DNA of 6,608 nucleotides from Spirochaetales bacterium. Its GTDB lineage: Bacteria; Spirochaetota; Spirochaetia; DSM-16054; Sediminispirochaetaceae. Below are positions 2,691 through 6,608 of this stretch, piece after piece. Position 1 is the stretch's first letter; the number at the start of each line of letters is the position of its first letter. The translations under genes and the position numbers were made by a program. Below the pieces are notes generated by a model. It saw nothing but the letters and a program-made list of their open reading frames with translations. It was not told the DNA's origin and did not search any database. The DNA is taken from NCBI GenBank assembly GCA_021767325.1, contig JAASTM010000135.1, positions 1 to 6,608 on the forward strand, read 5' to 3'.

Positions 2691-3323
2691 ATGAAGGATT
2701 TTAAGCATCTGCAAGTACCCCCTCCGCTGGAACCGGAAGAGGTGCCGGAGTTTCTATCCGGTTATATGCTGATTTCAGAATCGGAACTCAAAGACCCCAA
2801 CTTTTTCCGCACGATCGTACTGATCTTGACCCACGATAAAAACGGGGCTATGGGTCTGGTGATCAACCGCCCCAGTAATGCGACCCTGTCGGAAATAGCC
2901 GAAGATATGGATGACACCGAATTTTCCGACGCGCCTATCTATATCGGCGGACCGGTCGACCAGAACTACCTGTTCGCCCTGCACTCCGGTTTTGTAGGGG
3001 ATATAAAGAGCGACGGTGCAATCCAGGTCGGTGATCACATAGTATTCGAACCCGATTTTACCCTGCTGCATACGAACTATAAGAAGCTGCAGCAGGAGCA
3101 TGTACCCATCCCCCCTAACGTGCGTTTCTTTGCCGGGTATGCCGGCTGGGCGGGCGGACAGCTGGAGAGCGAGCTGCGGCGCAATGACTGGCTGATCATT
3201 CCCGCCTCTGCCGATCTGGTTTTTTCAGACAACCCGGGAAAAACCTGGAAGCAGGCTTTATATAAAAAAGGCGGTATCTACTGGCTGGCCGCTGAAACCG
3301 GCCACAAACCCTCTATAAACTGA
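2691..3323 (+). CDS. yqgE: YqgE/AlgH family protein (UPF0301, DUF179)
   Basis: 210 residues, against roughly 185-190 for the E. coli member; the excess is mainly an N-terminal extension of about 20 residues rich in proline and glutamate. Family motifs run in order: LSGYMLISESELKDPNF (22-38), RTIVLILTH (40-48), NGAMGLVINRP (51-61), IGGPV (85-89), FAGYAGWAGGQLESEL (147-162), NDWLIIPA (165-172). The ATG at 2691 is preferred over the internal ATG at 2766, because FLSGY, encoded just before the latter, aligns with the usual family start and no RBS is suitably spaced there. The family is conserved and cytosolic, with no agreed biochemical role; the AlgH name comes from an alginate regulation study in Pseudomonas. 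It is 43 bp downstream of the chemoreceptor and could receive readthrough, but it has its own promoter. It converges on the nitroreductase with a 3-bp gap. Confidence 0.92.
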   Translation: MKDFKHLQVPPPLEPEEVPEFLSGYMLISESELKDPNFFRTIVLILTHDKNGAMGLVINRPSNATLSEIAEDMDDTEFSDAPIYIGGPVDQNYLFALHSGFVGDIKSDGAIQVGDHIVFEPDFTLLHTNYKKLQQEHVPIPPNVRFFAGYAGWAGGQLESELRRNDWLIIPASADLVFSDNPGKTWKQALYKKGGIYWLAAETGHKPSIN

Positions 3324-3326
3324 ACC

Positions 3327-3857
3327 TTATTCACTACTCTCCCACCCATTCCAGTGTATCTTGCTTTCATCCCACTTGCTTTTCGGATCACTGTTCTCGG
3401 CAGGATACCCTATCGGGATTACATTCAGAGGGATCAAGTATTCGGGCATGTTCAATGTACTCTGCACCGCATCTATCCGGCTGGCTACCGGGTGAACCGC
3501 CGTCCACACGGCTCCCAATCCGATCGCATGCGCTGCCAAAAGGATGTTCTGCGCCGCCGCCGAGCAATCCTCTACCCAGTATTCCCGCTCGCGTTGATCC
3601 AGGGTTCTCCTCAGATCGCCGCAGACTATAATCGCCAATGGCGCATCTTTTAACATCTTGGCATAGGGAAGCTTCTCTGCCAGGACGTCCAGCAGCTCTC
3701 TTGTATCGATAACCACAAACATCCATGGCTGCATGTTAACCGCCGAGGGAGCGGCCATCCCAGCCTCCAGCAGTTTGGTCACTTCTGTCGATGAAACCGC
3801 CTTATCAGAGAATTTTCTGATACTTGTTCTCGAGAGTATGCATTTCATTGCATCCAT
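3327..3857 (-). CDS. Nitroreductase family flavoprotein (probable FMN-dependent NAD(P)H oxidoreductase)
   Basis: 176 residues, the size of the short single-domain nitroreductases. FMN-contact motifs are visible: SRTSIRKF (9-16), APSAVNMQPW (36-45), the helix DCSAAAQNILLAAHAIGLG (97-115), GAVW (115-118) and the phosphate-side PIGYPAE (148-154). The C-terminal KIHWNGW (166-172) resembles the ending of a subgroup found in anaerobes. Family members reduce nitro compounds, quinones or other small acceptors as homodimers; the physiological substrate cannot be told from sequence. ATG at 3857 is chosen because GGGGG lies 5 nt upstream on the minus strand; the ATG three codons later (3848) is possible. 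It lies 150 bp downstream of the 130-residue membrane protein on the same strand, so shared transcription is possible. No terminator is visible between its stop and that of yqgE. Confidence 0.93.
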   Translation of the reverse strand: MDAMKCILSRTSIRKFSDKAVSSTEVTKLLEAGMAAPSAVNMQPWMFVVIDTRELLDVLAEKLPYAKMLKDAPLAIIVCGDLRRTLDQREREYWVEDCSAAAQNILLAAHAIGLGAVWTAVHPVASRIDAVQSTLNMPEYLIPLNVIPIGYPAENSDPKSKWDESKIHWNGWESSE

Positions 3858-4524: not shown

Positions 4525-4785
4525 ATGACCAATAATACAATGCTCGCCAGATCTTTAGCCTTTTCTTCCCCATTCGCATATCAGGACCTGCTGTGCCAGA
4601 TCGACCGCTTATCTTCATATAATTTTCCGCAGGAACGAATCGAAGATATCCTAAAGCAGGCGATGGATATGTCGCAGAAATCAAACTATAGCCTCCAGCA
4701 GGCGGTGGATAAAATTGCGGCGCCTTTTTTGAAACAGAAAAAACACTCAGCCGCTGTACAAAATCTGAAGACAGATAAAAAATAA
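4525..4785 (+). CDS. Hypothetical small helical protein (86 aa)
   Basis: The protein was not recognised. It has no signal peptide, membrane segment or metal-binding motif, and only one cysteine (C24). Residues 18-70 are predicted helical from composition: YQDLLCQIDRLSSYNF, then PQERIEDILKQAMDMSQKS, then SLQQAVDKIAAPFLKQKK. The last 20 residues are basic and lysine-rich (KQKK, KTDKK). This is the look of a small cytosolic adaptor or a nucleic-acid-associated protein, but no function can be assigned. A strong promoter and near-consensus RBS support a real, well-expressed gene. It is divergent from the 130-aa membrane protein across 124 bp and is followed by a strong hairpin, so it is probably a single-gene transcript. 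Confidence 0.78.
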   Translation: MTNNTMLARSLAFSSPFAYQDLLCQIDRLSSYNFPQERIEDILKQAMDMSQKSNYSLQQAVDKIAAPFLKQKKHSAAVQNLKTDKK

Positions 4786-4850: not shown

Positions 4851-5648
4851 CTACAGGTAGTGTGAGAGAAGGGATTCGCTCAGCTCCCACAACCTTCTAG
4901 CCTTGTGATCAGGCTCATCCAGGAACCTGGAAAAGGCCGGTCTTTTATTCACAAAGTACTTGCCCGAGACTCCTTCGACTTCCTCCGAGGCTGCCAGATA
5001 TGCCGGAGTGCGGGCCCCCTGCTCTACCGATGCCCCGCCGGAGAACAACACGTGCAGCAGCTTCGTATTTATTACCCCGGGGTGCAGCGCATTCGAGCTG
5101 ATTCCCTCTTTGAAATACCGTCCGTGCAGTTCACGGGTGAACAGCACCATCGCAACCTTGGATTGCGCATACGCCCGGGAGGGATTATAACTGCGCTCGG
5201 AGTGCAGATCTTCGAAGTCGATACTGCCGCTTTCGTGCACCATCGAACTCACATTTACCACCCGGCTCGGGGCGTTGTTACGTAATAAATTCAATAATTT
5301 ATACGTAAGTAGGAAGTGTGCAAGATAATTGACTGCAAAGGTTTCCTCGAAGCCGTCAGCGGTTACCACCCGCTCTGTCCGGATGACCGCCGCGTTATTG
5401 ACCAGCACCTGCAGGTCGGGAAACGACCCGCTCACCTCGTCTGCCAGACGAGATACCGACTCCATACTGGCAAAATCTGCCGTCAGAAGATCAACCTCCG
5501 ACTTCGCTTCCGCCTGGATTTCCGAGTGAGCAGATATGCTCTTGCGGTTATCCCGGCCGACCATAACTATACTGTGGCCCTGGCGGCTCAGTTGGCGGGC
5601 CGTCTCTTTTCCGATTCCGTCGCTCGCGCCTGTAATCAGAACTCTCAT
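4851..5648 (-). CDS. Short-chain dehydrogenase/reductase (classical SDR, retinol-dehydrogenase-like)
   Basis: 265 residues, typical for a classical SDR with a Rossmann fold. The cofactor-binding glycine motif is TGASDGIG (6-13); R32 in GRD just after the second strand favours NADP(H) over NAD(H). Other motifs: D58 in LLTADFAS (adenine side), NNAA (84-87), NVSS (132-135) holding the catalytic serine, YAQSK (160-164) giving catalytic Y160 and K164, and HPGVINT (189-195). The run NVSS, then GSIDFEDL, then YAQSKVAMVLFTRELHGR follows the pattern of the retinol-dehydrogenase-like subgroup; these act on varied hydrophobic carbonyls or alcohols, so the substrate is open. All catalytic residues are present. 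ATG at 5648 has AGGAGG (5660-5655, minus strand) upstream. It is divergent from the EIIA fusion gene and convergent with the 86-aa gene, so it probably stands alone. Confidence 0.93.
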   Translation of the reverse strand: MRVLITGASDGIGKETARQLSRQGHSIVMVGRDNRKSISAHSEIQAEAKSEVDLLTADFASMESVSRLADEVSGSFPDLQVLVNNAAVIRTERVVTADGFEETFAVNYLAHFLLTYKLLNLLRNNAPSRVVNVSSMVHESGSIDFEDLHSERSYNPSRAYAQSKVAMVLFTRELHGRYFKEGISSNALHPGVINTKLLHVLFSGGASVEQGARTPAYLAASEEVEGVSGKYFVNKRPAFSRFLDEPDHKARRLWELSESLLSHYL

Positions 5649-5779: not shown

Positions 5780-6436
5780 ATGTCATTAGCCGGTTTCATT
5801 ACACCCAGACGTACGGTAATACTGGATTCAAAGAACAAACGCGATACTCTGGAAGAGCTACTGAGCTGTATTGAAGATGATGTCCCGGAACTGAACAAAG
5901 CAGGGATTCTCAAGCGAATACTCGAACGAGAGAAGAATATCACCTCGTATATGGGGTCGGGAATAGCGATTCCCCACGTCGTAATGGATACCTACGAATC
6001 GACTTATATCGCGGTAGGACTCAGCAAACCGGGTATAAAATGGGACCCGGCCAAGCAGGAGCTCGTCCACCTGGTCATTCTGATGATAGGCGGGCCTCGG
6101 GAACATCTGCAGATACTAAGTGAAGTAGCCTCCCAGTTGAAAGACGGGGAGCTGTACACCCGTCTGCTGGCTTCCACCAGCCAGGAGGACCTGTACGCCC
6201 GGATATCTAATCCCTCCAGCCGGGCTATCCAGAGCCGTTTCCACCGTGGACAGGAGATTACCGGAGCCAGTTTTCGCAAAGGTGTTGAACTCGCCGGGGA
6301 GTTAGACGGGGCTCAAATACTCCTGCACGCCGATGCTTTTGAAACTGCCGAACAGGTACAAAGCGTTATCGGTACGCAGGAAGTACTGATAGTTACCCAC
6401 AAGCTCGATCTCTACACCGACTGCAATCGTATCTGA
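5780..6436 (+). CDS. PTS EIIA (fructose/Ntr type) domain fused to a diadenylate cyclase (DAC/DisA_N) domain, 5' part up to the frameshift
   Basis: 218 codons are read before TGA at 6434-6436. Residues 1 to about 148 form a PTS_EIIA type-2 domain: ITPRRTVILDSKNKRDTLEEL near the start, the phosphorylation-site motif GSGIAIPHV with H66 as the expected phospho-acceptor, VHLVILMIGGPREHLQILSEVASQL (96-120), then LYTRLLASTSQEDLYARI. A linker follows (about 149-180), then an alpha/beta segment DGAQILLHADAFE and EVLIVTHKLDLYTDCNRI that leads into a DAC domain, whose next part is found in another frame after the stop. The ATG is supported by the G-rich RBS 6 nt upstream and an in-frame stop at 5762-5764. 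DAC proteins make cyclic di-AMP from two ATP; EIIA domains pass phosphate from HPr-like carriers. A regulatory coupling of the two is inferred. No membrane segment is visible, so it is cytosolic. Confidence 0.85.
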   Translation: MSLAGFITPRRTVILDSKNKRDTLEELLSCIEDDVPELNKAGILKRILEREKNITSYMGSGIAIPHVVMDTYESTYIAVGLSKPGIKWDPAKQELVHLVILMIGGPREHLQILSEVASQLKDGELYTRLLASTSQEDLYARISNPSSRAIQSRFHRGQEITGASFRKGVELAGELDGAQILLHADAFETAEQVQSVIGTQEVLIVTHKLDLYTDCNRI

Positions 6437-6608
6437 CCCGGATTTTACAGATTGCCGGTGAACTGGCAGCGGAAGGACGTGAAGGCCATGCGGTAGGCAC
6501 TCTGTTCGTGTTCGGCGACCACTCCAATGTAGTAACATACATCCGTCAGATGATTGCAAATCCCTTTGCAGGTTTAAAGGAGGCCGACCGGAATATTCTC
6601 GATCCGAA
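6437..6608 (+). pseudogene. Continuation of the diadenylate cyclase domain in the -1 frame (frameshifted, cut by the right edge)
   Basis: From CTG at 6433 onward this frame reads LTRILQIAGELAAEGREG, then HAVGTLFVFGDHSNVV, then IANPFAGLKEADRNILDP up to the edge. This is the conserved DAC/DisA_N sequence: 'EGREG', 'GTlFVfGD', 'NPF.G..e..RNIlDP'. The catalytic DGA and RHR motifs normally follow and are beyond the window. No ATG lies near its beginning and the frame is open upstream only from 6343, where the peptide is not DAC-like. It is therefore the same gene as the EIIA frame with one base missing around 6421-6434, not a separate gene. It may be a true mutation, an assembly error or, less likely, programmed recoding. 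Confidence 0.8.

Follow-up and report, generated by a model that had tools for sequence, protein, structure and literature searches.

An EIIA–diadenylate cyclase fusion, recurrent among bacteria and incomplete at the end of a spirochaete contig, is likely a phosphotransferase-gated and usually accessory enzyme

We analyzed a 6,608-base stretch of DNA from a Spirochaetales bacterium (GenBank assembly GCA_021767325.1, contig JAASTM010000135.1), referred to here as the window, which is the entire contig and was labelled P0001 in our protein search. Its last part encodes pieces of a protein in which an EIIA domain of the phosphotransferase system (PTS) is joined to a diadenylate cyclase (DAC) domain, the kind of domain that makes cyclic di-AMP (c-di-AMP). 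We found that this EIIA-DAC fusion is a real and recurrent protein family, of which the window holds an incomplete copy, and that the enzyme is likely a PTS-gated and usually accessory DAC. We give a probability of roughly 60% to the reading that the locus is the spirochaete copy of a three-domain enzyme, composed of EIIA, a middle domain and a DacZ-type DAC, in which phosphorylation of His66 would set the c-di-AMP output, usually beside a CdaA enzyme.

A recurrent three-domain family

The intact relatives are about 440 amino acids long and carry, in this order, the EIIA domain, a probable DacZ_P/PK_C-like domain and a DacZ-type DAC domain. Both the EIIA and the DAC Pfam domains were present in 57 of 68 protein-search matches, confirming the fusion as an architecture, as an earlier note made from the window's sequence had proposed. 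In a Pfam scan of six intact relatives, the DAC family PF02457 scored above its cut-off in all six. In the same scan, DacZ_P lay above its cut-off in P0009 and below it in P0033, PK_C lay below its cut-off in P0044, and P0003, P0025 and P0059 matched neither. Given that a fold comparison hardly covered residues 212 to 286, it is sequence matches only that define the middle domain.

To describe the distribution of the family, we searched three sets of genomes. Among 198 genomes from the class of Alkalispirochaeta alkalica (G030), our count of the listed matches gave 46 in which a single profile match covered the two ends of the fusion, and further genomes of this class gave partial matches. The reference protein P0003, which comes from a Spirochaetota metagenome-assembled genome (MAG) and is named diadenylate cyclase by NCBI, found matches at E ≤ 1e-60 in 60 of the 394 genomes drawn from the class of the Spirochaetaceae MAG G002, including two (G105 and G270) in which the fusion match was clearly cut; this draw and that of 198 genomes overlap in many genomes. 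In the class of the Chitinispirillaceae MAG G008, P0044 matched 34 of 40 genomes at E ≤ 1e-40. Full fusions were also seen in MAGs labelled PVC group (L017) and Pirellulaceae (L046), for which transfer or misbinning is possible, and locus L042 (3712–5268) holds a longer fusion frame of 519 amino acids, in which additional sequence separates the EIIA domain from the DAC domain.

Some JGI records already join both names by automatic annotation. No paper on the fusion was recognized among the titles and abstract openings retrieved; the DAC census of Galperin from 2023 may describe the architecture, so a prior description is possible. That work, "All DACs in a row," is reportedly a census of DAC architectures and may list EIIA-DAC.

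The window copy is interrupted

The window holds the following parts of the fusion, all on the forward strand.

5780..6436, +: open reading frame (ORF) of 218 amino acids with the EIIA type-2 domain and the first part of the middle domain, ending at a TGA produced by the break
5813..6211, +: PTS_EIIA_2 domain, residues 12–144 (Pfam match)
5927..5929, +: codon of Arg50, invariant in 95/95 main-clade fusions
5975..5977, +: codon of His66, where phosphorylation is predicted, within GSGIAIPH; histidine in 95/95 main-clade and 17/40 remaining fusions
6104..6106, +: codon of His109, a second conserved EIIA histidine (91/95 main-clade fusions)
6227..6433, +: beginning of the middle (DacZ_P/PK_C-like) domain, roughly residues 150–218 by alignment, the start being approximate; the name is taken from relatives, P0009 having DacZ_P above its cut-off
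6430..6436, +: break, with 241 bases missing relative to P0003, a frame change and a stop, from comparison with intact relatives
6433..6606, +: first 58 residues of the DacZ-type DAC domain, read in a different frame and truncated where the contig ends; 54/58 identical to P0003 residues 299–356

The match of the 218-amino-acid ORF to PTS_EIIA_2 (PF00359; E 2.7e-21) reaches 76.5 bits against a cut-off of 27, in agreement with the type-2 EIIA domain with GSGIAIPH and H66 that the earlier note had recognized, while the PtsN equivalog TIGR01419 stays below its cut-off (53.1 versus 138.7 bits). The note had further read the EIIA domain as continuing into a DAC domain, and this held in part: EGREG, GTLFVFGD, NPFAGL and RNILDP are all encoded at the window end, and the NCBIfam DacZ model matches the DAC piece weakly (E 3.4e-6, 26.6 bits versus a cut-off of 430), but the two pieces lie in different frames on either side of a 241-base gap. 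The domain search that it had called for gave a similarly divided result, with PTS_EIIA_2 found in the window and PF02457 in the six relatives but no Pfam family in the window DAC piece at E 0.1. Both the middle domain and the gap had been overlooked.

The break was defined by comparison with P0003, P0004 and P0005, each of 440 amino acids and 79, 61 and 51% identical to the window over the matched part, with P0003 as the main reference. The first window piece corresponds without gaps to P0003 residues 1 to 218 (172/218 identical), and the second, also without gaps, begins at residue 299. Residues 219 to 298 (80 residues) are thus missing, and since base 6433 is used by both frames, the loss amounts to 241 bases. 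The same 80-residue gap was seen against P0004 and P0005, to which the two pieces likewise align gap-free at residues 1 to 218 and 299 to 356. A one-base frameshift was ruled out, as 80 residues separate the two pieces in all three references.

As assembled, the gene is broken and would yield no more than the EIIA part, provided that the gap does not stem from misassembly; a simple frame correction would give a protein without most of its middle domain. No close DNA relative spanning the break was found, the best protein identity among the 394 genomes of the class being 46%, so that a deletion and an assembly error both fit the data. For this window only, we consider a true pseudogene or deletion allele, as opposed to an assembly error, a credible explanation of somewhat less than even probability. 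The missing bases, the frame change and the stop point in this direction, as do other broken copies, namely, one that is split (L037) and two with single stops (G117 and G217); against it, a mere 175 bases or so separate the break from the end of the contig, the protein was met a single time on a single contig, and the good conservation of both pieces argues against long decay. The split copy comes from a Fibrobacter MAG (L037, 9965–11292), where two frames of 274 and 205 amino acids represent a broken or misread gene, and the stops of G117 and G217 fall within the fusion match.

His66 and the fusion tree

We collected 137 distinct fusions, left out two that lack the N-terminal columns, and placed the remaining 135 together with 38 DACs without EIIA in a tree of 173 rows, which was built with a quick method and re-rooted on one Thermococcus row for reading. 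A main clade comprises 95 fusions, and in it R50, E51, A63, P65, H66 and G85 are the only invariant columns among 137. We take Arg50 and His66 to be the active-site arginine and the phospho-acceptor histidine, respectively, as in EIIA enzymes. Among the remaining 40 fusions, position 66 holds a histidine in 17, a glutamine in 20, a lysine in 2 and a tyrosine in 1. The 23 rows without the histidine all group in one clade of 33 sequences with a Shimodaira-Hasegawa-like approximate likelihood ratio (SH-aLRT) support of 99; the Chitinispirillaceae class contributes 31 of these sequences. These counts refer to sequences and not to events, as near-duplicates were kept; on the tree, the histidine at residue 66 changes at least six times. 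The presence or absence of EIIA requires four changes, so that the fusion may not have a single origin.

Loss of H66 through loss of the PTS was ruled out, as enzyme I (EI) was found in 39 and HPr in 38 of the 40 genomes of the Chitinispirillaceae class. Some genomes hold H66 and H66Q forms together (G008 with L010 and L127, G012 with L015 and L128, and G406 with L133 and L148). With such natural forms at hand, the switch hypothesis can be tested without engineering new ones.

The behavior of residue 66 bears on an alternative in which the EIIA domain serves chiefly for docking, as unphosphorylated Escherichia coli PtsN does with TrkA, YcgO and KdpD, so that c-di-AMP synthesis would be brought to potassium transporters or kinases and phosphorylation would be secondary or absent. 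PtsN does work by protein contacts, and according to sections of a PtsN review (PMC13104625) none of its targets is known to receive the phosphate; moreover, the second clade kept its EIIA domain after losing H66 in 23 of 33 sequences. However, pure docking would not demand that H66 and R50 be invariant in 95 of 95 sequences while most of the domain varies, and we regard this alternative as unlikely.

Phosphate donors and other DACs in carrier genomes

To compare genomes with and without the fusion, we hand-picked 44 spirochaete genomes from the G030-class matches, mostly with matches on low-numbered contigs, of which 18 are carriers and 26 noncarriers. The earlier note had suggested looking for EI and HPr, and both turned up: EI was present in 18/18 carriers, and HPr, which was sought in carriers only, in 17/18, showing that a phosphoryl donor exists. 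The remaining carrier, G110, also has a short EI frame. PTS_EIIC scored above its cut-off in 9 of the 18 carriers and 4 of the 26 noncarriers; half of the carriers thus show no PTS_EIIC permease. PtsP carries a GAF domain, and such a domain was found in 5 of 8 carrier EI proteins scanned with Pfam. With NCBIfam, none of 10 carrier EI proteins, several of which are cut N terminally by the stretch fetched, reached the cut-off of NF008283, presumably the PtsP model.

Two DACs were found in 17 of the 18 hand-picked carriers, the second one scoring higher than the fusion, whereas all 26 noncarriers had one; in the spirochaete G168, the fusion was the only DAC found. Likewise, 29 of the 36 genomes behind the first loci contain another DAC at E ≤ 2.4e-31. 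Thirteen second DACs were fetched from the hand-picked carriers, and all 10 that were tested passed the NCBIfam CdaA cut-off. Most spirochaete carriers thus have the fusion in addition to CdaA, which for them does not support the earlier proposal that it may be the main c-di-AMP source of the organism. The published work on c-di-AMP in spirochaetes concerns, in the sections of PMC12974146 used here, the CdaA-type enzymes of Borrelia, Treponema denticola and Leptospira. On contig C1 of the genome G060 (L084 and L095), a CdaA-like DAC (1238392–1238742) and the fusion (1245554–1246858) are encoded by the same strand at a distance of about 7 kb.

In the Chitinispirillaceae class, a DAC was found in 35 of the 40 genomes, and 25 of the 34 genomes with the fusion had no higher-scoring DAC kind, a count subject to MAG incompleteness. 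In this class, and in G168, the fusion may be the main source of c-di-AMP. A higher-scoring, different DAC with frames of 471 to 513 amino acids was observed in G008, G031, G416, G417, G418, G419, G429, G432, G435 and G436 of the class.

DAC catalytic motifs

We took the DAC motifs to be GxRHRxA, SEE and DGA (PMC7288161). Since the DGA and RH positions fall past the window end, they were read in relatives only, in 59 fusions from the protein search and 47 from the loci, giving 106 rows that were not de-duplicated. Of the two motifs that the earlier note had expected beyond the window, DGA was found in 106/106 rows and a literal RHR in 0/106, one row being gapped. RH is followed by A in 77 rows, T in 23 and another non-arginine residue in 5. 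In place of SEE, the listed fusion variants have SES or, in a few cases, SQS. Both RHR and SEE are intact in 13/13 CdaA-like proteins. Among locus rows without a detected EIIA, 11 of 41 have RHR; these 41 include five cut or split fusions (L012, L035, L037, L040 and L050) and one CdaA-like row (L095). Variation at the second arginine of RHR also occurs in DacZ-like proteins that lack EIIA.

We consider it likely that the fusion makes c-di-AMP. A reversed signal would instead have the DAC-like domain weakly active or inactive, sensing ATP or c-di-AMP and steering the phosphate flow through EIIA. The absence of the second arginine from all rows and the change from SEE to SES would fit such a role, as would the second DAC of 17 of the 18 hand-picked carriers. 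On the other hand, DGA is kept throughout, DacZ-like proteins without EIIA vary at the same arginine, and the 25 Chitinispirillaceae-class carriers without another DAC kind, as well as G168, would be left without c-di-AMP. We consider a reversed signal quite improbable.

Proposed mechanism

In the phosphorylation-controlled enzyme that we favor, phosphate in intact main-clade relatives would pass from phosphoenolpyruvate to EI, to HPr (of the sugar PTS and/or PTS-Ntr) and on to His66. The phosphorylation state of His66 would be relayed via the middle domain to the DAC domain, whose output would be the c-di-AMP level contributed by the fusion and would act on potassium and osmolyte control. Phosphorylation, catalysis and the coupling of the two are inferred, and the coupling could either raise or lower the c-di-AMP output. 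PtsN regulates potassium by contacting TrkA, YcgO and KdpD (PMC13104625), and in many bacteria the potassium and osmotic balance is under the control of c-di-AMP (PMC7900238); a term count of the PtsN review (PMC13104625) returned no c-di-AMP. A more specific version, which we hold tentatively at slightly below even odds, is that c-di-AMP output is set directly by the flow of phosphate that EI and HPr deliver to His66, so that one protein unites the potassium control of PtsN with that of c-di-AMP, and that the second, mostly Chitinispirillia clade, from a class often without another DAC kind, is mostly phosphate blind (H66 to Q, K or Y), sometimes beside an H66 paralogue.

Several observations weigh against phosphate control of the cyclase. 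The main clade has an SH-aLRT support of only 76. The second clade lost H66 in most of its members though EI and HPr remain in the class, showing that the EIIA domain can be kept without the histidine. EI was present in 26/26 noncarriers as well and hence does not track the fusion. Given that RHR and SEE are altered in the fusions while all 13 CdaA-like proteins keep both, the activity of the fusion DAC is not assured. Finally, no conserved operon was found in 57 sources (56 loci and the window), and the neighborhood gave no functional hint.

If the proposal is true, the covalent link between a PTS switch and a DAC would directly connect phosphoenolpyruvate status and, via PTS-Ntr, the nitrogen status of the cell with a signal for potassium and osmotic balance. 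Feeding status could then set the salt-balance signal in some free-living spirochaetes and more distant bacteria, and the fusion would merge two separately known potassium controllers, PtsN and c-di-AMP.

Gene neighborhood

The only neighbor cluster common to more than 6 of the 57 sources is a broad one found at 11 loci, an example of which resembles an ABC transporter ATPase by its Walker motif. In 34 close same-strand neighbors scanned, no Pfam family occurred in more than two at E 1e-8; 39 had been listed, and five were omitted (two that nearly duplicate a scanned neighbor, two taken from a genome already scanned under another record, and a short ORF). A search for a c-di-AMP riboswitch beside the fusion, with Rfam on the window and seven loci, matched only a tRNA. 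Separate EIIA-type ORFs of 153 to 167 amino acids lie within about 6 kb of the fusion in L009 (16161–16619), L011 (12471–12938), L013 (16161–16619, minus strand) and L015 (4273–4773, plus strand). The other genes of the window are as follows.

2–520: SurA-like chaperone, cut by the contig start (Pfam)
806–2647: chemotaxis receptor (Pfam)
2691–3323: AlgH-like protein (DUF179; Pfam)
3327–3857: nitroreductase (Pfam)
4525–4785: ORF of 86 amino acids without a Pfam match
4851–5648: short-chain dehydrogenase (Pfam)

Comparison with known systems

Unlike in PtsN (EIIA-Ntr) and the fructose/mannitol EIIA proteins, the EIIA domain of the fusion is joined to a DAC, and the second fusion clade lost H66 in 23/33; P0003 reaches 45.1 bits with the PtsN model, below the cut-off of 138.7. 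With CdaA, the fusion shares the DAC fold and the DGA motif, but P0003 scores 37.6 bits against a TIGR00159 cut-off of 188.8, and CdaA-type DACs coexist with the fusion. It also differs from DisA, whose model NF010009 (cut-off 201) gives 39.9 bits and matches only the DAC domain of P0003. The DacZ and CdaZ (DacY) classes of archaea and some bacteria have a common PK_C-like N-terminal fold (PMC6741144), and the DacZ of Haloferax volcanii is an active and essential DAC (PMC6741144). As in these classes (PMC6741144), the DAC domain of the fusion probably follows a PK_C/DacZ_P-like domain, and among the DAC models NCBIfam DacZ fits P0003 best. Its score of 104.2 bits lies far under the equivalog cut-off of 430 of this haloarchaeal model, and the fusion differs from DacZ and CdaZ in carrying an added EIIA domain.
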